Origin: Candidatus Desantisiibacteriota bacterium
Lineage (GTDB): Bacteria; JACRDZ01
Length of the DNA: 10,845 nucleotides
Direction: 5' to 3'
Assembly: GCA_016209155.1 (NCBI GenBank)
Contig: JACQWU010000032.1
Span: 1-10,845, forward strand
Position 1 is the first letter of the stretch. The number at the start of each line of letters is the position of its first letter. Below, in pieces: positions 2 to 10,845 of this stretch. The translations under genes and the position numbers were made by a program. The notes below the pieces were generated by a model that worked only from the letters and a program-made list of their open reading frames with translations, did not search any database and was not told where the DNA came from.

Positions 2-1015
2 AAATATTGGCGTAAAAAAGGATATAATACAAGAAATATTTTAATTATAGGTACCGGTACGCGGGCACAAAATTTCATCAAAAGTATTGAAAAACACAGC
101 GAATGGGGCTTGAAAATTCTGGGACTTCTTGATGAAGATCCGCGGAAAAAGGACCAGATAATAAATAATTATAAGGTTATCGGCTGTTTTGAAGACCTGG
201 TCGGCATATTACATACAAATGTTGTTGACCATGCTATATTTATTGTTCCCAGATTATGGTTTGAAAAAATAGAGAATCTTATCTCTATTTGTGAAATGGA
301 AGGAGTTACTGTAACTATTGCGGTTGATTTATATGAGCTTAAGTTTTCAAAGGCAAAACAGACAGACCTTGACGGTCATCCTTTATTGACATTTCAAAGC
401 GCGCCGGATAAAGTGGGATGCCTTTTTATTAAACGGATGTTTGATTTTATTCTATCAGGGATAGCGCTGCTTATTTTATCGCCTGTATTTATTATTATCC
501 CGCTGATTGAAAAAATATCAAAAGGCAAAGTATTTTTTAAGCAGGAAAGATGCGGTTTAAACGGCAGAAAATATATACTTTATAAATTCAGGACAATGGT
601 AGAAAACGCTGAAAATAAAATCAATGAACTTTATAAGTTTAATGAAATGAAAGGCCCTGTTTTTAAAATGAAAAACGATCCGCGTATTACAAAATTCGGA
701 CGTTTTATGAGGAAATTCAGCATAGATGAATTTCCTCAATTATGGAATGTTTTTAAAGGAGATATGAGTATTGTAGGCCCAAGACCACCTTTACCTTCAG
801 AAGTTAATAAGTATGACAGCTGGCATAGAAGGCGTCTAAGCATGAAACCCGGGCTCACATGCCTCTGGCAGATATTGGGGAGAAACGAAATAACTGATTT
901 TGACGAGTGGATGAAACTTGACCTTGAATATATAGATAAATGGTCATTGATTCTTGATTTAAAAATAGTATTAAAAACAATACCGATTGTTTTGCTTGGC
1001 AAGGGAGCGAAATAA
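2..1015 (+). CDS. Polyprenyl-phosphate sugar-1-phosphate transferase (WbaP/WcaJ type), 5' end outside window
   Basis: This enzyme transfers a sugar-1-phosphate from a nucleotide sugar to undecaprenyl phosphate at the inner membrane, the first step of repeat-unit assembly. The frame is open from base 2, so the gene starts upstream. A TTG at 110 is only an internal codon, because the residues before it (RNILIIGTGTRAQNF) are a typical nucleotide-binding-like fold of the family. That middle domain runs to about base 400. The catalytic sugar-transferase domain follows: KRMFDF and a membrane hairpin at about 430-510, FKQERCG, YKFRTM, then IDEFPQLWNVFKGDMSIVGPRP, in which the Asp-Glu pair at 725-730 matches the catalytic dyad of the PglC superfamily. 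The C-terminus, with KPGLTCLWQ and a final DLKIVLKT helix, is intact. The N-terminal transmembrane bundle expected of long members would lie outside. The next gene starts two bases after the stop, which implies one operon. The sugar specificity cannot be read. Confidence 0.95.
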   Translation, partial: KYWRKKGYNTRNILIIGTGTRAQNFIKSIEKHSEWGLKILGLLDEDPRKKDQIINNYKVIGCFEDLVGILHTNVVDHAIFIVPRLWFEKIENLISICEMEGVTVTIAVDLYELKFSKAKQTDLDGHPLLTFQSAPDKVGCLFIKRMFDFILSGIALLILSPVFIIIPLIEKISKGKVFFKQERCGLNGRKYILYKFRTMVENAENKINELYKFNEMKGPVFKMKNDPRITKFGRFMRKFSIDEFPQLWNVFKGDMSIVGPRPPLPSEVNKYDSWHRRRLSMKPGLTCLWQILGRNEITDFDEWMKLDLEYIDKWSLILDLKIVLKTIPIVLLGKGAK

Positions 1016-1017
1016 AA

Positions 1018-3405
1018 ATGGGGAGAAATATGAAAATATTAAAAATTGTTTTTTGCGCAATATTTTTACTGTCTGTATTTGTCTACGCCGGGGATGAAGT
1101 TTCAGAGGAACCTCCGGCTAAATATACGGTAGGCATTGATGATATTCTGGAGATATCAATACTCCAGCCGGAAAGAATTTCAACCATAGTAGCGGTGAGT
1201 CCCGACGGAGCAATAACTTTTCCTTATGTGGGGAACGTGCAGGTTAAAGATATGCCAATGGAAAAAATACAGGAAAAGATACAATCAATGCTTGCCAATT
1301 ATATGAAATATCCGGTGATTTCTATTTCTTTAAGAGAATCCAGAAGCAGAAAATTTTATATCTATGGAAATGTTATACATCCTGGAGTGTATCCTGTGGA
1401 AGAAAATCTGACATTGCTCAGGTCAATATCCATCGCGGGAGGATTTGTTCAATATGGACCTGCAAGCCGGGTTAAAATATTAAGACCTAAAAAAGGAGAA
1501 AACGTATTCGAAAATATAAAAATAAATATTAATGATTTAATGGCAGGTGTTACTAAGGATATATATATTTACCCGCAGGATGTAATAGAAATATCCGCCG
1601 GCAGATTTTCTATCTCGGGGAAAATCGCAAAACCCGGTATTTATTCAATAGAAGAAAATACAACTCTCTTAATGGCCATATCACTTGCCGGAGGATTAAT
1701 AGAAGAAAATACTATTAATGAGGTAAAAATTATCAGAACACAAAAAGGTAAGGAAAATGAAATTAAGTTGGACATAAAAGATGCAGTAAAAAATAATTCG
1801 GGTCAAAATGTAGCAATTCAACATGGTGATTTAATTATAATAGCCGGTATGCAAAAAGGGTATTTTTATGTTAACGGTGATGTTAAAAATCCCGGGATTT
1901 ACCCGTATCCTTTAGAGGAAAAAATTACAGCATTAAAAGCGATATCTATTGCCGGAGGTTTTCAGAAAAATGGATTTATTACAAAAGTAAAACTTTTAAG
2001 ACCTAATGAAAAAACAGGTTATGAAGTTATAAATCTAAATATTAAAGAAATTACAGAAGGGCATATCCTTGATACTTATATTCAATTGGGGGATATTCTT
2101 GAAGTTACTAATAATAAGTTTTATATCTCAGGAAAGGTTATAAACCCGGGAATGTATCCTATTGAGGAAAACACAACAATTATGAAAGCTGTGGCATCGG
2201 CAGGAGGATTTGTTGATGCAAGATTTGCAAGCGAGGGAAGAATAATAAGAAGACAAAAAGATAAAGATGAAAATGAAATTATAAAAATAAACATTAAGGA
2301 TATAGTAGAAGGAAAATATAAAGACATTAATATTGAATCAGGGGATGTAATTGAAATTAAAGATATGGATGTAGGAAATTTCTATGTATATGGAGAAGTT
2401 TTAAAACCCGGCGCTTTCCCCTATCCTCCGGAAGAAAATATTACTGTTTTAAAAGCGATTTCAATTGCGGGGGGATTTAGTAAATATTCTTCTTCAAAAC
2501 AAATCAAATTATTGAAATTGAAAAAAGAAAACTCAGGATATGAAATGAGAAAAATTAACGCCAGGGAACTTATAGAAGGCGGCGGAGGCAGGGATTTAAC
2601 GGTTAATATCGGAGATATAGTTGAAGTCCTTGAGGAAAATAAATTTTCCATTTCGGGAGATATATTAAAACCCGGAATATATTACATTGAAGAAAACACA
2701 ACTATTTTAAAAGCGATAACACTCGCAGGAGGATATGCGCGTTACGGCTCTTTAAAACGGGCTATTCTGCGAAGATTAAAAAATGACGGAGCAGGATATG
2801 AACCTGTAAATATAAACATAAATGCTATTAATAAAGAAAACAATAATCAGGATATTCTGATTCAACCGGGAGATGATATTGAAATAATATCAGAGAAATT
2901 TTATATATCCGGTGAAGTTTTAAGGCCCGGAGAATTTTTGTTAGACGAAAATATAACTGTTTTAAAGGCTATATCAATGGCAGGCGGACTTACTAAATTC
3001 GGTTCCATAAATAATGTCAAAGTTTTAAGGCTTAAAAATAATAAAGTGGAATATGAAAATATTAAAATAAATATGAAAGCGGCTATGGAAGGCTCATCCG
3101 GGTCGGATACCATTATCCAGCCCGGGGATATTATTGAAATTTTACCGGAAAAGTTTTTTGTATCCGGTGAAGTTTTAAGACCCGGAGAATTTTTCCTGGA
3201 TGAAAACATAACTGTTTTAAAGGCAATATCAATGGCAGGCGGTTTTACTAAATATGGTTCCATGAAAGGTGTCAAAATTTTAAGGCTTAAAAAAGATAAA
3301 GCAGAATATGAAAACATCAAGGTAAATATGAAAGCAGCCATGGACGGCTCATCCGAGTCGGATATCATCCTCCAGCCGGGGGATAATGTTGTGGTAACGG
3401 AATAG
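1018..3405 (+). CDS. OPX/Wza-type polysaccharide export protein with eight tandem SLBB domains
   Basis: A periplasmic polysaccharide export protein, expected to form the conduit between the inner-membrane co-polymerase and the outer membrane. Residues 1-24 are a Sec signal peptide (KILK, then a hydrophobic stretch ending VYA-G). No lipobox cysteine sits at the cleavage site, unlike E. coli Wza. Residues about 35-107 are the polysaccharide export domain (KYTVGIDDILEISIL ... VSPDGAITFPYVG). Eight SLBB units follow, starting near residues 113, 197, 283, 368, 455, 543, 628 and 713. Each has the pattern F-x-x-x-G-x-[VI]-x-x-PG, then EEN-T-L-AIS-AGG, then PGD-IE. Wza has two SLBB units, so 795 residues is about twice the usual length. 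The protein ends one strand after the last unit and has no C-terminal amphipathic helix for an alpha-helical outer-membrane pore. The ATG at 1018 has AAGGGAG at 1001-1007; an in-frame ATG at 1030 is a less well spaced alternative. Confidence 0.95.
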   Translation: MGRNMKILKIVFCAIFLLSVFVYAGDEVSEEPPAKYTVGIDDILEISILQPERISTIVAVSPDGAITFPYVGNVQVKDMPMEKIQEKIQSMLANYMKYPVISISLRESRSRKFYIYGNVIHPGVYPVEENLTLLRSISIAGGFVQYGPASRVKILRPKKGENVFENIKININDLMAGVTKDIYIYPQDVIEISAGRFSISGKIAKPGIYSIEENTTLLMAISLAGGLIEENTINEVKIIRTQKGKENEIKLDIKDAVKNNSGQNVAIQHGDLIIIAGMQKGYFYVNGDVKNPGIYPYPLEEKITALKAISIAGGFQKNGFITKVKLLRPNEKTGYEVINLNIKEITEGHILDTYIQLGDILEVTNNKFYISGKVINPGMYPIEENTTIMKAVASAGGFVDARFASEGRIIRRQKDKDENEIIKINIKDIVEGKYKDINIESGDVIEIKDMDVGNFYVYGEVLKPGAFPYPPEENITVLKAISIAGGFSKYSSSKQIKLLKLKKENSGYEMRKINARELIEGGGGRDLTVNIGDIVEVLEENKFSISGDILKPGIYYIEENTTILKAITLAGGYARYGSLKRAILRRLKNDGAGYEPVNININAINKENNNQDILIQPGDDIEIISEKFYISGEVLRPGEFLLDENITVLKAISMAGGLTKFGSINNVKVLRLKNNKVEYENIKINMKAAMEGSSGSDTIIQPGDIIEILPEKFFVSGEVLRPGEFFLDENITVLKAISMAGGFTKYGSMKGVKILRLKKDKAEYENIKVNMKAAMDGSSESDIILQPGDNVVVTE
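2899..3402 (+). repeat. Recent in-gene duplication: SLBB units 7 and 8
   Basis: The two units 2899-3153 and 3154-3402 are far more alike than any other pair in the gene, in both DNA and protein. Shared stretches include GTATCCGGTGAAGTTTTAAG-like text, LDENITVLKAISMAGG and NMKAAM-GSS-SD. Differences are mostly single bases, many of them synonymous. This suggests that the array of about 85-residue units grew by unequal recombination within the gene, with this pair the latest step. Confidence 0.8.
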
Positions 3406-3423
3406 CACGAAAACGGAGGAATA

Positions 3424-4953
3424 ATGACAAATTTAACGTTCAGAGATTATTTAAAGGTATTATTCAGGCAGAAAGCGGTAATCATTACTTCTATTTTAAC
3501 TGTAATAATAACAGTTGCGGTTGGATTAGAGTTTAAAACACCTGTTTATGAATCTCAGGTGAAAATTTTAATTTCAGCCCAAAAGCAGGTGGAATCACCT
3601 TATTACAGAGAATTAATGGGACCGCAAAATACAATATCGCTTACACAAAGCGAGATTGTAAAATCCAATCCTGTTATAGAGCGGGCGGTAAATGTGCTTG
3701 GTCTTCATAAAAGGCCTCTTGATTATGAAAAACAATTTGCCGGTCAGATTAAACAATTCTTTATCGCACAGCGTATTGAAAAAATGGAAAAAGAAATATC
3801 AAGCTTAGACCCGGAACAAAGGAGTGCCCTGCTTTTCCGGATTGCTGTTGAAGATTTGAAAAAAAACATTAAAATTGAACCCTTGAGAGATACCAACATA
3901 ATTGTTTTAACTGCCAGTGACTTCAGCCAGGTAGGTGCGGCAATAATTGCCAATATTGTAAGCCGTTCATATATAATTTTTGACCTTGAACAACAGCAGG
4001 TTGAATTACGGATGAGATATGGAGAAGAAAACCTTATGGTCAGGCAGTTAAAAGATAATATTGATAAAACAACAAAGGACATAAGCGGAGGCCTCCTGCC
4101 TAATATAGATGCTATCGGGCCTGCAAGTGTGAAAATTATTGAACAGGCACTGCCTTCATTTCAACCGTCAGGAATACCTAAAAAGCTAACCTTACTTCTG
4201 GCTGTTGTTATGAGTATATTTTTAGGTATAATGCTTGCATTTATTTTTGAATACATGGACCAGACTTTCAGGTCGCCACAGGAGGCAGAAGAATTTCTTG
4301 ATATACCTTTTTTGGGCTCTATTCCAAAAAAAGCTAAAATAGATTTATATCACACACTGTCTGACCAATTGTACCTTGTGATGAAAGATAAAAATTTAAA
4401 ATCTGTTTTAATAACTTCAACTTTACCCGAAGAAGGAGTTTCTACTATAATTGCCGATCTTGGAAGATATTTATCTGATAAAGGAGGCCATAAAATTTTA
4501 ATTATAGACGCAAATTTCAGGACTCCGTCGATTCATAAAATTTTCAATTTACCGGAAGATAAAGGTTTTTCCAATCTTCTTGAAGGTACGTTATCATTAG
4601 ATAAAGCAGTAAAAGATATAAACACTAAACTTGCGGTTTTACCCGCAGGTAAGACCGAACTTAATCCTATAACCCTTTTCGGATCACATTTTATGCCTGA
4701 AATAATAAAACAGGTTAAAGAAAAATATGATTTAATTCTTATAGACAGCCCAAATTTAAAAACCTATAAAGATTCCATATCACTCTCCTCATATTCAGAC
4801 GGAGTAGTAATAGTCATCAATGAAGGCAAAACCCGCCGTCAGGTTGTCAAATTCTCATTATCGGTTTTTGAACAGAAAAAAATAAATTTGATCGGCTTCA
4901 TCCTGAATAACCGAAAATATTCCCTGCCGAAAGTTATTTATGATAGAGTGTAA
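3424..4953 (+). CDS. Polysaccharide co-polymerase: Wzz domain fused to a degenerate BY-kinase-like ATPase domain
   Basis: This is a Wzc/CpsCD-like inner-membrane protein that controls polymer chain length and couples to the export protein just upstream. Residues about 1-60 hold the Wzz start and the first membrane segment (AVIITSILTVIITVAVG). A periplasmic, partly coiled region runs to about 235. The proline-rich motif PSFQPSGIP at 244-252 precedes the second membrane helix at 255-278. The cytoplasmic domain has the BY-kinase order of motifs but with changes. The Walker A equivalent is PEEGVST, with valine 339 where lysine is expected. Walker A' is IIDANFRTP (D362, then N364). Walker B is LILIDSPN (D441). 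The C-terminus is short and lacks the usual tyrosine cluster, with only two tyrosines in the last dozen residues. The protein has probably lost kinase activity and acts as a structural co-polymerase. The start has an excellent GGAGGA at 3415-3420, 18 bases after the previous stop. Confidence 0.92.
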   Translation: MTNLTFRDYLKVLFRQKAVIITSILTVIITVAVGLEFKTPVYESQVKILISAQKQVESPYYRELMGPQNTISLTQSEIVKSNPVIERAVNVLGLHKRPLDYEKQFAGQIKQFFIAQRIEKMEKEISSLDPEQRSALLFRIAVEDLKKNIKIEPLRDTNIIVLTASDFSQVGAAIIANIVSRSYIIFDLEQQQVELRMRYGEENLMVRQLKDNIDKTTKDISGGLLPNIDAIGPASVKIIEQALPSFQPSGIPKKLTLLLAVVMSIFLGIMLAFIFEYMDQTFRSPQEAEEFLDIPFLGSIPKKAKIDLYHTLSDQLYLVMKDKNLKSVLITSTLPEEGVSTIIADLGRYLSDKGGHKILIIDANFRTPSIHKIFNLPEDKGFSNLLEGTLSLDKAVKDINTKLAVLPAGKTELNPITLFGSHFMPEIIKQVKEKYDLILIDSPNLKTYKDSISLSSYSDGVVIVINEGKTRRQVVKFSLSVFEQKKINLIGFILNNRKYSLPKVIYDRV

Positions 4954-4955
4954 AG

Positions 4956-4993
4956 ATCGAAGGACGAGAGACGAAAAGATGAGGAACGAGAAC
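4956..4993 (-). repeat. Short heptamer-type array, complement orientation
   Basis: The stretch GAAGGACGAGAGACGAAAAG and what follows it is the reverse complement of the CTTTCGTCCCTCGTCC-type arrays found further right (6449, 7379, 7768, 9230). It starts directly after the co-polymerase stop codon and is the first member of the family in the window. No hairpin with a T-run is present, so it is not an obvious terminator. Confidence 0.6.
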
Positions 4994-5006
4994 AAGCAAA
5001 TTACAC

Positions 5007-5035
5007 TTGACTGATATATTAAAATATGGTAAACT
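5007..5035 (+). promoter_or_regulatory. Sigma70-type promoter of the ATPase gene
   Basis: TTGACT at 5007-5012 (5 of 6 to consensus) and TAAACT at 5030-5035 (4 of 6) are separated by exactly 17 bases. Transcription would begin near 5042, only a few bases before the ATG at 5046. No Shine-Dalgarno fits in that space, so the transcript would be leaderless or nearly so. The gene is therefore likely transcribed separately from the polysaccharide operon upstream. Confidence 0.6.
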
Positions 5036-5047
5036 ATAGTTAACCAT
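5026..5047. promoter_or_regulatory. Near-perfect palindrome over the -10 box and start codon (possible operator)
   Basis: The core GGTAAACTATAGTTAACC is an inverted repeat with one mismatched pair. With AT and AT on the outer sides it spans 22 bases and includes the first two bases of the ATG. It covers the -10 box, the likely transcription start and the start codon. A dimeric repressor bound here would block transcription; autoregulation by the ATPase, which has a winged-helix-like segment, is one inferred possibility. Confidence 0.5.
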
Positions 5048-6263
5048 GATTGAAAAATTTATCGAAATACATATATCCTTAATAAAAGAAGCCAGGAAAC
5101 TGACTTTTAGAAGGTATCTTTATAATAATATTGATTGGAATAACCGGCTTATTGGTATTATTGGTGCCAGAGGTGTAGGTAAAACTACGCTTTTACTGCA
5201 GTATTGCATTGAATATTTTGATAATCCCGAAGACGGTCTTTATTTATCTGCTGATAATATTAACATCGCGAGTAAAGGTTTGTATAACCTGGCTGAGGAA
5301 TTTTTTAATTTTGGCGGTAAGGTTTTACTTATTGATGAAGTACAGAAATATCCTAATTGGCAGCAGGAATTGAAAAATCTCTACGATTCCTTTCCCTCTA
5401 AAAAAGTAATTTTTTCGGGCAGTTCGAGTATAAATATTCTTAAAGGAAAGTCCGATCTTTCAAGGCGGGTTATCTTCTATAAATTAAAAGGGCTCTCCTT
5501 TAGAGAGTTTCTTTTGCTACATACCGGTAAATCTTTCGAGAAATTAAAAATGGAAGAAATCCTCACAAACCATGTGAAAATCGCGGGTGATATCAGCAAT
5601 GAAATTCCGATATTAAGATATTATAATGAATATCTTAAATTCGGGTATTATCCCTTTTTTAAAGAAGGAATAAATACCTTTTACGGAAAATTAGATAATG
5701 TGGTAGACAAAATATTTTATGAGGATATTCCTTTATTATTTAATGTAAAACCTGATTCAATATACAATTTAAAAAAGTTATTTTATCTGGTAGCAACTTC
5801 ACAACCGTTTACTCCAAATATATCCCGGTTAAGTTCTCAACTGGGTATCTCCAAGGAATATATATATATCTATATAGATGAACTTGAAAAAGCAGGATTA
5901 TTTAATCTGCTATATAGTAATACCACAGGTTTTAACCTGCTGCGTAAACCTCAGAAAATATATTTGGAGAATGTAAATCTTTTTACATTGATAGAAAAAG
6001 AGAAAGGATTTGGTGTCGAAAAAGGAAGTACTAGAGAAACCTTTTTTCTAAACCAGGTCTCTGAAGTTGTCCGTCTATTTTTTCCGGATAAAACAGATTT
6101 TATGGACAACACAGGCAGATATTTTGAAGTAGGCGGGAAGGGAAAAACGGATAAAGTCAAGAATATTGAAAGTACGTCAAAAAATCATTTTACTATTTGC
6201 GACGATATCAATATCGGTTTTAAAAATAAAATTCCTCTTTGGGTGTTTGGTTTTCTATATTAA
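5046..6263 (+). CDS. AAA+ family ATPase with C-terminal DUF4143 domain
   Basis: A cytoplasmic AAA_14/DUF4143 ATPase, a family common in anaerobic and candidate-phylum bacteria and in archaea, whose cellular role is mostly unproven. Walker A is GARGVGKT at residues 40-47. Walker B is VLLIDE at 93-98. A sensor-like SGSSS is at 124-128, and the family signature DLSRR, at 137-141, is followed by LKGLSFREFL. A winged-helix-like segment (SRLSSQLGISKEYIYIYIDELEKAGL) lies near residues 260-290. The DUF4143 domain ends with ETFFLNQV, FEVGGKGKT (E361) and the typical terminus IPLWVFGFLY. At 405 residues the length is normal and all motifs are intact. The gene has its own promoter and an unusual palindrome at its start. 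It is not a polysaccharide gene and probably arrived as an independent cassette between two halves of the polysaccharide locus. Confidence 0.93.
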   Translation: MIEKFIEIHISLIKEARKLTFRRYLYNNIDWNNRLIGIIGARGVGKTTLLLQYCIEYFDNPEDGLYLSADNINIASKGLYNLAEEFFNFGGKVLLIDEVQKYPNWQQELKNLYDSFPSKKVIFSGSSSINILKGKSDLSRRVIFYKLKGLSFREFLLLHTGKSFEKLKMEEILTNHVKIAGDISNEIPILRYYNEYLKFGYYPFFKEGINTFYGKLDNVVDKIFYEDIPLLFNVKPDSIYNLKKLFYLVATSQPFTPNISRLSSQLGISKEYIYIYIDELEKAGLFNLLYSNTTGFNLLRKPQKIYLENVNLFTLIEKEKGFGVEKGSTRETFFLNQVSEVVRLFFPDKTDFMDNTGRYFEVGGKGKTDKVKNIESTSKNHFTICDDINIGFKNKIPLWVFGFLY

Positions 6264-6645: not shown

Positions 6646-7005
6646 ATGGAAATTAAGATAATTTTTGAAAAAGATGAAGATGGAATATATATAGTTACAT
6701 GCCCATCTTTACCAGGATGCGTTTCTCAAGGTAAGACAGAAAAAGAAGCAATAAAGAATATAAGAGAAGCTATTAAACTCCATATAAAATGTTTAGCGAG
6801 GAGATGGTTTGCCGATATTAAAACGAATCATAAAAGCATAAAGGAAGCGGATGAATATTCATACTATTTGGCAGTACTTCGTAAAAATATACAAAAACAA
6901 GGTGGTTTTAAAATTGGAAAAAATAAGAATGAAGTTTTGCGAAAATTAAAAGAAGTCAGACAAACCACAATGAAAGAAAATTATGAAAATCATTTTGGAT
7001 ACTAA
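6646..7005 (+). CDS. HicB-like antitoxin N-terminus joined to a PIN-partner antitoxin tail (probably a broken or chimeric gene)
   Basis: Residues 1-50 are a clear HicB/UPF0150 domain (EKDEDGIYIVTCPSLPGCVSQ, then KTEKEAIKNIREAIKLHIKCL). Normally this is followed by a sequence like EDGLPIP and a stop near 65-75 residues. Here the DGLPI text is present but in another frame, at 6803-6817, with a stop at 6839-6841, so one base seems to have been gained near 6795-6802. The shifted frame stays open through about 45 unrecognised residues. It then ends in NEVLRKLKEVRQT and MKENYENHFGY, which resembles the end of a small antitoxin encoded just before PIN toxins, and overlaps the PIN start by 23 bases. 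It may be expressed, since it has a good Shine-Dalgarno and an extended -10 promoter, but I doubt it is a working HicB: no HicA toxin is next to it. A true fusion antitoxin is the alternative. Confidence 0.7.
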   Translation: MEIKIIFEKDEDGIYIVTCPSLPGCVSQGKTEKEAIKNIREAIKLHIKCLARRWFADIKTNHKSIKEADEYSYYLAVLRKNIQKQGGFKIGKNKNEVLRKLKEVRQTTMKENYENHFGY

Positions 7006-9620: not shown

Positions 9621-10845
9621 ATGAAAAGAGATGAAAAAGAACAAAAAATTATAGGATTCGAAGTAAATCGAAGACTGGTTAAAAAGAGTATAACAAATAG
9701 CATAATTTATAATTTTTTCTTGAAATTTAAAGGGTTGATTACTGTACCTATTATTACTTATCTTTTAGCCCCAGCGGAACTGGGCAAATATTTTTATATA
9801 CTTTCCTTAACATCAATTATGGTTCCTATGTTTATTTTGAATTTAGCTGATGGTCCAGTATTGCATTTTGTACAGGAAAATGACATTTTAAAAATTAAGC
9901 GTATGTATTATACTGTCCAAAACACAACGATCATTAGCCTATTTTTTTTTAATGTAGTTCTACTCCTGATTTCACATTTTATTGATCTGAAATTCTCAGA
10001 TTACATTGGTTATGTAATTCTCATTATTTTATGTCAGTCTATTTTTAAAATTACGTCTTATTTGCTGGTCGTGTACCAAAAGACAGATATTCTAATTCGA
10101 TATTCATTCACAAAGGAAATCATCAGTTTTGTTATAGGGATTTTATTACTTATTGCTGGTATTGGTATTAGGGGTTTGATGGTGGGGATTATATTAACGG
10201 ATGTTGTTGCAGGAATGCTTATCGGATTAAAAATATATAAAGAGATAGGGTATGAGCCAATAATAGACACAAAATATCTTGTGAAATTTTTAAAAATTTC
10301 AATTCCACTACTTCCGGTATTTTTCTTTTCATGGATCATGCTTGCTCTGGACACATTTTTATTGATGTATTTGCAGGGGGCATACAGCGTAGGTATTTAC
10401 AATATTGCGTATTCACTCAGTTCAATCATATTGACAGTGACTTTTGCACTGAATTTTTTTTGGTTTCCAGTATCAGCTAAAATGTGGGGAGAATCCCGCG
10501 AAAAATATAAAAAACTTTTCAAGGTATTATTTTCTGTTGCAAGCGTGTTGCTCTTGTGTATGGTTGTGCTGTTTGAGCTAAACGCTGAGTTTATTTTGAA
10601 GTTTCTCGTTAAAAATACCGAATATTATGCTGCAAAACCAATAATTGGGATTATAAGCTTTGCTATGGCCATGCGTGTATTAATTACACTTTTGACAGCG
10701 CCTCTTTACTCCAACAAGAACAGCTTTATGATATTTTTAACTAATTTTGTCGGGGCTTTTGTGACAGTTATTCTTGACATTTTGTTAATACCCAAATATG
10801 GTATATCAGGGGCGGCAATAACGACAGCTATCTCATATTTTCTAG
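9621..10845 (+). CDS. Wzx-type polysaccharide flippase (MOP superfamily), 3' end outside window
   Basis: An inner-membrane flippase that moves lipid-linked repeat units from the cytoplasmic to the periplasmic face. The frame is open from the ATG at 9621, with AGGA at 9611-9614 six bases before it, to the right edge, giving 408 codons of a protein usually about 430-500 long. It starts with a charged cytoplasmic tail, then NSIIYNFFLKFKGLITVPIITYLLAPAELGKYFY, which is the typical first helix and loop of the polysaccharide synthesis (RfbX/Wzx) family. A long run of hydrophobic helices follows, with the conserved central segment LKISIPLLPVFFFSWIMLALDTFLL, then VGIYNIAYSLSS and, near the edge, ILLIPKYGISGAAITTAISY. 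No stop or frameshift is seen. It belongs with the initiating transferase, acetylase and export genes on the left. The relic just upstream suggests it replaced an earlier flippase. Confidence 0.93.
   Translation, partial: MKRDEKEQKIIGFEVNRRLVKKSITNSIIYNFFLKFKGLITVPIITYLLAPAELGKYFYILSLTSIMVPMFILNLADGPVLHFVQENDILKIKRMYYTVQNTTIISLFFFNVVLLLISHFIDLKFSDYIGYVILIILCQSIFKITSYLLVVYQKTDILIRYSFTKEIISFVIGILLLIAGIGIRGLMVGIILTDVVAGMLIGLKIYKEIGYEPIIDTKYLVKFLKISIPLLPVFFFSWIMLALDTFLLMYLQGAYSVGIYNIAYSLSSIILTVTFALNFFWFPVSAKMWGESREKYKKLFKVLFSVASVLLLCMVVLFELNAEFILKFLVKNTEYYAAKPIIGIISFAMAMRVLITLLTAPLYSNKNSFMIFLTNFVGAFVTVILDILLIPKYGISGAAITTAISYFL

Follow-up and report, generated by a model that had tools for sequence, protein, structure and literature searches.

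Four competing models describe the route of the polymer from the inner-membrane co-polymerase to the outer-membrane barrel (PMC9603273). In Wza, the D1 domain meets the co-polymerase and the SLBB domains form stacked rings (PMC12881504, PMC9601211). Class 3 is the commonest class of OPX proteins and about 30% of its members have SPI signals; its published architectures consist of Poly_export followed by one to seven SLBBs, whereas helix-bearing Class 1 proteins carry up to 14 SLBBs (PMC9603273). EpsX, proven to partner a short OPX protein in Myxococcus, has been reported as an 18-strand AlgE-like barrel (PMC9601211). Helix-less OPX proteins with barrel partners (Class 3, D1D2 OPX) are already known; what is new in the locus described here is a variable-length family with constant partners, a rule for the terminal unit and a tie to a pseudokinase co-polymerase.

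The window, by which we mean the whole stretch of 10,845 nucleotides analysed, carries genes in the order PGT, OPX and PCP, followed by an acyltransferase and a Wzx-type flippase. The PGT, PCP and Wzx flippase markers of the Wzx/Wzy-dependent pathway are all present in the cluster, and a Wzy polymerase was not identified on the window contig. The OPX protein, of the EpsE/EpsY type, is probably part of a Wzx/Wzy-type exopolysaccharide operon. The features of the window are as follows.

2..1015, + strand: polyprenyl glycosylphosphotransferase (initiating PGT), 5' part lost at the contig end (PF02397, E 2.6e-68; NCBIfam TIGR03025 above cut-off)
1030..3405, + strand: OPX protein, 791 aa (Pfam; NCBIfam EpsE TIGR03028 above cut-off)
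1030..1089, + strand: Sec/SPI signal peptide MKILKIVFCAIFLLSVFVYA, without a lipobox (hydropathy 2.4 at aa 3-21; sequence)
1108..1332, + strand: Poly_export (D1, PF02563) (Pfam)
1354..1605, + strand: SLBB unit 1 (Pfam, unit alignment)
1606..1863, + strand: SLBB unit 2 (Pfam, unit alignment)
1864..2118, + strand: SLBB unit 3 (Pfam, unit alignment)
2119..2379, + strand: SLBB unit 4 (Pfam, unit alignment)
2380..2643, + strand: SLBB unit 5 (Pfam, unit alignment)
2644..2898, + strand: SLBB unit 6 (Pfam, unit alignment)
2899..3153, + strand: SLBB unit 7, duplicate partner of unit 8 (unit alignment)
3154..3402, + strand: SLBB unit 8, terminal, closest to the lone SLBB of short relatives and proposed to dock the barrel (unit alignment and comparison)
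3424..4953, + strand: polysaccharide co-polymerase (PCP) with a Wzz domain, a short periplasmic part and a degenerate tyrosine-kinase domain (Pfam, NCBIfam, sequence)
9621..10845, + strand: Wzx-type flippase, continuing beyond the window end (PF13440; HfsF-like by NCBIfam)

The OPX open reading frame opens at 1018 (795 aa), and the start at 1030 (791 aa) was preferred because GGGGAG lies just upstream of it; the stop is at 3405. The original prediction had placed the protein at 1354-3402, which is right for the SLBB part but not for the whole gene at 1018/1030-3405. Its count of eight SLBB units was borne out in the domain search, which found a single PF02563 domain (E 2e-16, 60 bits against a cut-off of 28) followed by exactly eight PF10531 stretches (E 5e-81), in units of 83-88 residues joined by linkers of few residues. 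The signal peptide was assigned to Sec/SPI by inspection of the sequence, which shows no lipobox cysteine at the cleavage site, as had been read before. The proposed lack of an outer-membrane helix also held: the chain ends in ...QPGDNVVVTE, 2 residues beyond unit 8, and carries neither a transmembrane nor an amphipathic stretch at its C-terminus (once the signal peptide is left aside, hydropathy over 19 residues peaks at 1.14), and a helical tail is likewise absent from the AF2 model. Neither Wza_C (PF18412) nor GfcC (PF06251) was found in the protein by Pfam at E<=0.001. The co-polymerase gene begins at 3424 and therefore leaves no space for a frame-shifted helix after the OPX gene.

The window OPX is almost certainly a Class 3 protein, that is, helix-less and porin-partnered. 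Since Class 3 is the commonest class (PMC9603273), the missing helix is ordinary, and the earlier view of it as unusual needed correction. Eight SLBBs lie beyond the published Class 3 range of one to seven, a range that is descriptive and not defining (PMC9603273); given this range and the Class 1 maximum, eight is a modest extension in number. We compared the protein with the Class 3 or D1D2 OPX proteins EpsY/WzaX, WzaS and WzaB of Myxococcus, EpsE (TIGR03028) and the XrtA-system export protein (TIGR03027). These likewise consist of Poly_export and SLBB only, lack the Wza_C helix, are encoded in an operon with PGT and PCP, and share an 18-stranded barrel partner with the relatives of the window OPX. 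They differ in having one or two SLBBs instead of eight and a lipoprotein signal instead of SPI, and the barrel of the relatives described here is of the BBP2_2 (PF10082) type. The EpsE match reached 336.8 bits against a cut-off of 262.65, a score that is summed over seven stretches of repeated SLBBs and is therefore weak evidence of equivalence to EpsE. The Class 1 protein Wza of E. coli is alike in its D1 and SLBB fold and in their predicted order, but it is a lipoprotein with two SLBBs and a C-terminal outer-membrane helix.

In order to identify relatives, named genomes were searched with an alignment of four SLBB units, which yielded 31 loci, mostly from Candidatus Omnitrophota with some from Auribacterota, Spirochaetes and Kuenenia. 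The OPX proteins of these loci also stop directly past the last SLBB, usually in ...VVVSEGxF, and have no C-terminal helix. Neither of the outcomes named as counting against the original prediction, far fewer SLBB units or close relatives with such a helix, was thus observed. Most relatives have one SLBB, and the others have three (L073, L091), four (L077, L088) or five (L083, L124); our own counts agree with Pfam where the two were compared. No other eight-unit OPX was found in 384 Omnitrophota genomes (E<=1e-58; a single passing genome encoded a multi-unit OPX, which had five units) or in 386 mixed relatives (E<=1e-45). Most other long OPX proteins of distant phyla end in a hydrophobic helix and were therefore set apart as a different kind. 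In several loci a small PD-(D/E)XK (PF13366) gene lies between OPX and PCP (L071 4457-4828, L079, L084).

The original prediction had called for a separate outer-membrane β-barrel, and the neighborhoods of the relatives support this. Clustered neighborhood analysis showed a conserved order of barrel, PGT, OPX and PCP, with the barrel gene at most 1.8 kb upstream of OPX in 23 of 24 close-family loci (duplicates excluded, at least 1.7 kb of sequence upstream of OPX), including OPX proteins with three, four and five SLBBs. The sole exception, the three-SLBB Kuenenia locus L091, showed no nearby barrel. The barrel matches PF10082 (BBP2_2) over cut-off and TIGR03016/TIGR03014 weakly, below the NCBIfam cut-offs. 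A model of the L070 barrel has 18 long strands (mean pLDDT 88) and matches AlgE structures best (Z 22.1, 317 residues, 4.3 A), with other 18-strand porins scoring slightly lower. The relatives' barrel thus resembles EpsX/WzpX, EpsL (TIGR03014) and AlgE in its 18 strands and its best structural match, and differs from them in remaining under the NCBIfam cut-offs and in not being recovered from the window genome. There, neither PF10082 nor a 16-sequence barrel alignment found a barrel in an assembly that is 79% complete, and the missing N-terminus of the PGT, which would flank the break from its far side, was not located on any other contig either. The own barrel of the window OPX is unseen because the contig ends within the PGT, immediately short of the upstream position expected for the barrel. 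At the five-SLBB locus L083 the contig breaks in the same way, and the barrel and then the PGT start lie at the end of another contig of that genome (G061). A barrel partner is predicted, and probable, for the window OPX as well. In some loci a regulator gene with HTH and HD_5 (c-di-GMP phosphodiesterase-like fold) lies just upstream of the barrel (L070 6195-6965, L071, L072).

The eight SLBB units of the window OPX share 27-72% pairwise amino acid identity, with an SLBB core (F, G, PG, T, AGG, D) that is invariant across all of them. Units 7 and 8 are the closest pair (72% amino acid, 84% DNA identity) and are a recent duplicate by sequence. Unit pairs 2-3 and 4-5, with common linker features, look like the product of an older two-unit duplication. 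Across the family, the last unit is the one most like the single SLBB of short relatives in six of seven multi-unit proteins, L088 being the exception (exact P=9e-4 under a null of equal chance per unit, for seven proteins that are not fully independent); the result holds without the C-terminal tail. In a unit tree, a single-domain tree of weak resolution, most inner units cluster with others of their own protein (L124; L091; L088 2-3; L077 2-3; L083 with some window units), and the expansions therefore arose several times. Read most simply, the terminal unit has retained one constant role, probably barrel docking, and the inner units are additional spacers. This unit comparison suggests that the last ring docks the barrel and that the inner rings are tandemly duplicated spacers, and it yields a concrete prediction, namely that docking to the barrel falls to the terminal SLBB.

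The partners of the OPX protein showed no comparable change in length. The spacing between TM1 and TM2 of the PCP is 232-241 residues whether the OPX has one or eight SLBBs, so a long OPX does not offset a shorter PCP, and simple length compensation by the PCP was rejected. Barrel lengths likewise showed no clear difference by SLBB number (373-401 aa in most, n=1 to 5). This close-knit family, with the same PCP and barrel type and one, three, four, five or eight ring domains, is a natural length series, in which the length of the conduit should rise stepwise with SLBB number if the rings stack.

PDB sequence matches of the window OPX are Wza and OPX proteins. The AF2 monomer has a pTM of 0.30 and weak inter-domain confidence; in a comparison with Wza its D1-U1-U2 part scores Z 17.6 (247 residues, 4.4 A rmsd), and the same part also aligns to the Class 3 protein WzaB (9n9a). 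By analogy with Wza, the chains would oligomerise with D1 facing the inner-membrane co-polymerase and with one ring per SLBB; the conserved last SLBB would dock on the BBP2_2 barrel, and the inner units may be spacer rings, multiplied by tandem duplication, that make the periplasmic conduit longer. At a ring height of about 30 A, our own arithmetic from Wza (140 A for three rings and a helix of about 50 A), nine stacked rings would give a tube of about 270 A, compared with a periplasm of 210-440 A. A Class 3 OPX with a barrel-docked last SLBB and conduit-forming spacer rings is, as a whole, the explanation we consider probable, and we lean slightly towards the stacking of all units into a long tube. 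Against this explanation stand the failure to find a barrel in the window genome, the constant PCP spacing, the uncertain inter-domain geometry of the model and the published finding that OPX length and periplasm thickness show no overall link (PMC9603273). We propose only tentatively that a single-chain OPX oligomer of nine rings is on its own long enough to span most of the periplasm, linking the PCP to the AlgE-like barrel, with the last ring as adaptor and the inner rings as spacers, tandem duplication being the source of changes in their number. If true, the nine-ring OPX would give the contiguous-conduit model (Model 3 of PMC9603273), which has been left open for Class 3, a naturally occurring case.

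The extra SLBBs could instead be flexible beads that bind polymer or peptidoglycan, with only D1 and one or two units forming rings. The SLBB is a ligand-binding β-grasp domain (PMC1796856), PCP and barrel do not differ between one- and eight-unit systems, and the AF2 model places the domains relative to each other with low confidence, all of which would suit such beads. However, the tight spacing of the units and their very short linkers, together with the match of D1-U1-U2 to the stacked Wza arrangement, make this fairly unlikely. We regard as slightly less likely again that SLBB copy number merely drifts through recombination between tandem repeats and has little functional meaning. Drift would agree with the repeated expansions indicated by the grouping of inner units, with the recent duplication of units 7 and 8 and with the varying counts among close relatives, but the SLBB core has been kept in all eight units despite their divergence, and old units therefore appear to be maintained by selection.

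That the OPX on its own extends to or across the outer membrane, without a barrel partner, is highly improbable: the failure to find a barrel in its own genome is in its favor, but the protein has no helix or other hydrophobic segment, the barrel is conserved beside the OPX of relatives and the contig is cut exactly at the expected barrel position. Inflation of the repeat number by misassembly is hardly credible even for a fragmented MAG of 352 contigs with a run of Ns and an unusual gene fusion further along the contig, as DNA divergence between units is at least 16%, even the closest pair is not identical and the frame is open throughout.

The host genome encodes Omp85, and the host is therefore a diderm with an outer membrane. 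Horizontal transfer of the OPX operon is likely, because the host phylum differs from that of the relatives and three other genomes of this sparsely sampled phylum gave no close match. Mis-binning of the window contig was not favored, as its tetranucleotide usage matches other contigs of the bin (0.84-0.88), though the nearest relatives belong to another phylum. AAA_14 ATPase (5046-6263) and HicB-like antitoxin (6646-7005) genes interrupt the window operon, and AAA_14 homologues also occur near OPX loci L072 and L083. A 32-N gap lies directly past the window end (contig C247 10846-10877), and the last ORF of this contig (11137-12603) joins an FAD oxidoreductase in frame with a cysteinyl-tRNA synthetase-like end (identity by eye), a probable misjoin. 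The host genome also contains a second long OPX (1294 aa; contig C114 (L039) 1629-5513). It has 8-10 SLBBs and a hydrophobic helix at its C-terminus, and adjoins a mannose-1-phosphate guanylyltransferase-like gene.

Finally, the tyrosine-kinase domain of the window PCP lacks the Walker A lysine (PEEGVST), which is absent from all 33 aligned close-family PCP rows (a few of them duplicates), and close-family PCPs end in a conserved ILNNR-[FY]-IP-x-[FI]Y-x-x-V tail, not a Tyr cluster. Judged by these motifs, they are a fused PCP-pseudokinase family. The BY pseudokinases EcpK (PMC12004946) and HfsB likewise lack the Walker A lysine and the Tyr-rich tail; in contrast to these, the pseudokinase domain here is fused to the PCP in one chain. 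PCPs beside four-SLBB OPX proteins (L077 5059-6924, L087, L088) have two additional transmembrane segments predicted ahead of the kinase-like domain.
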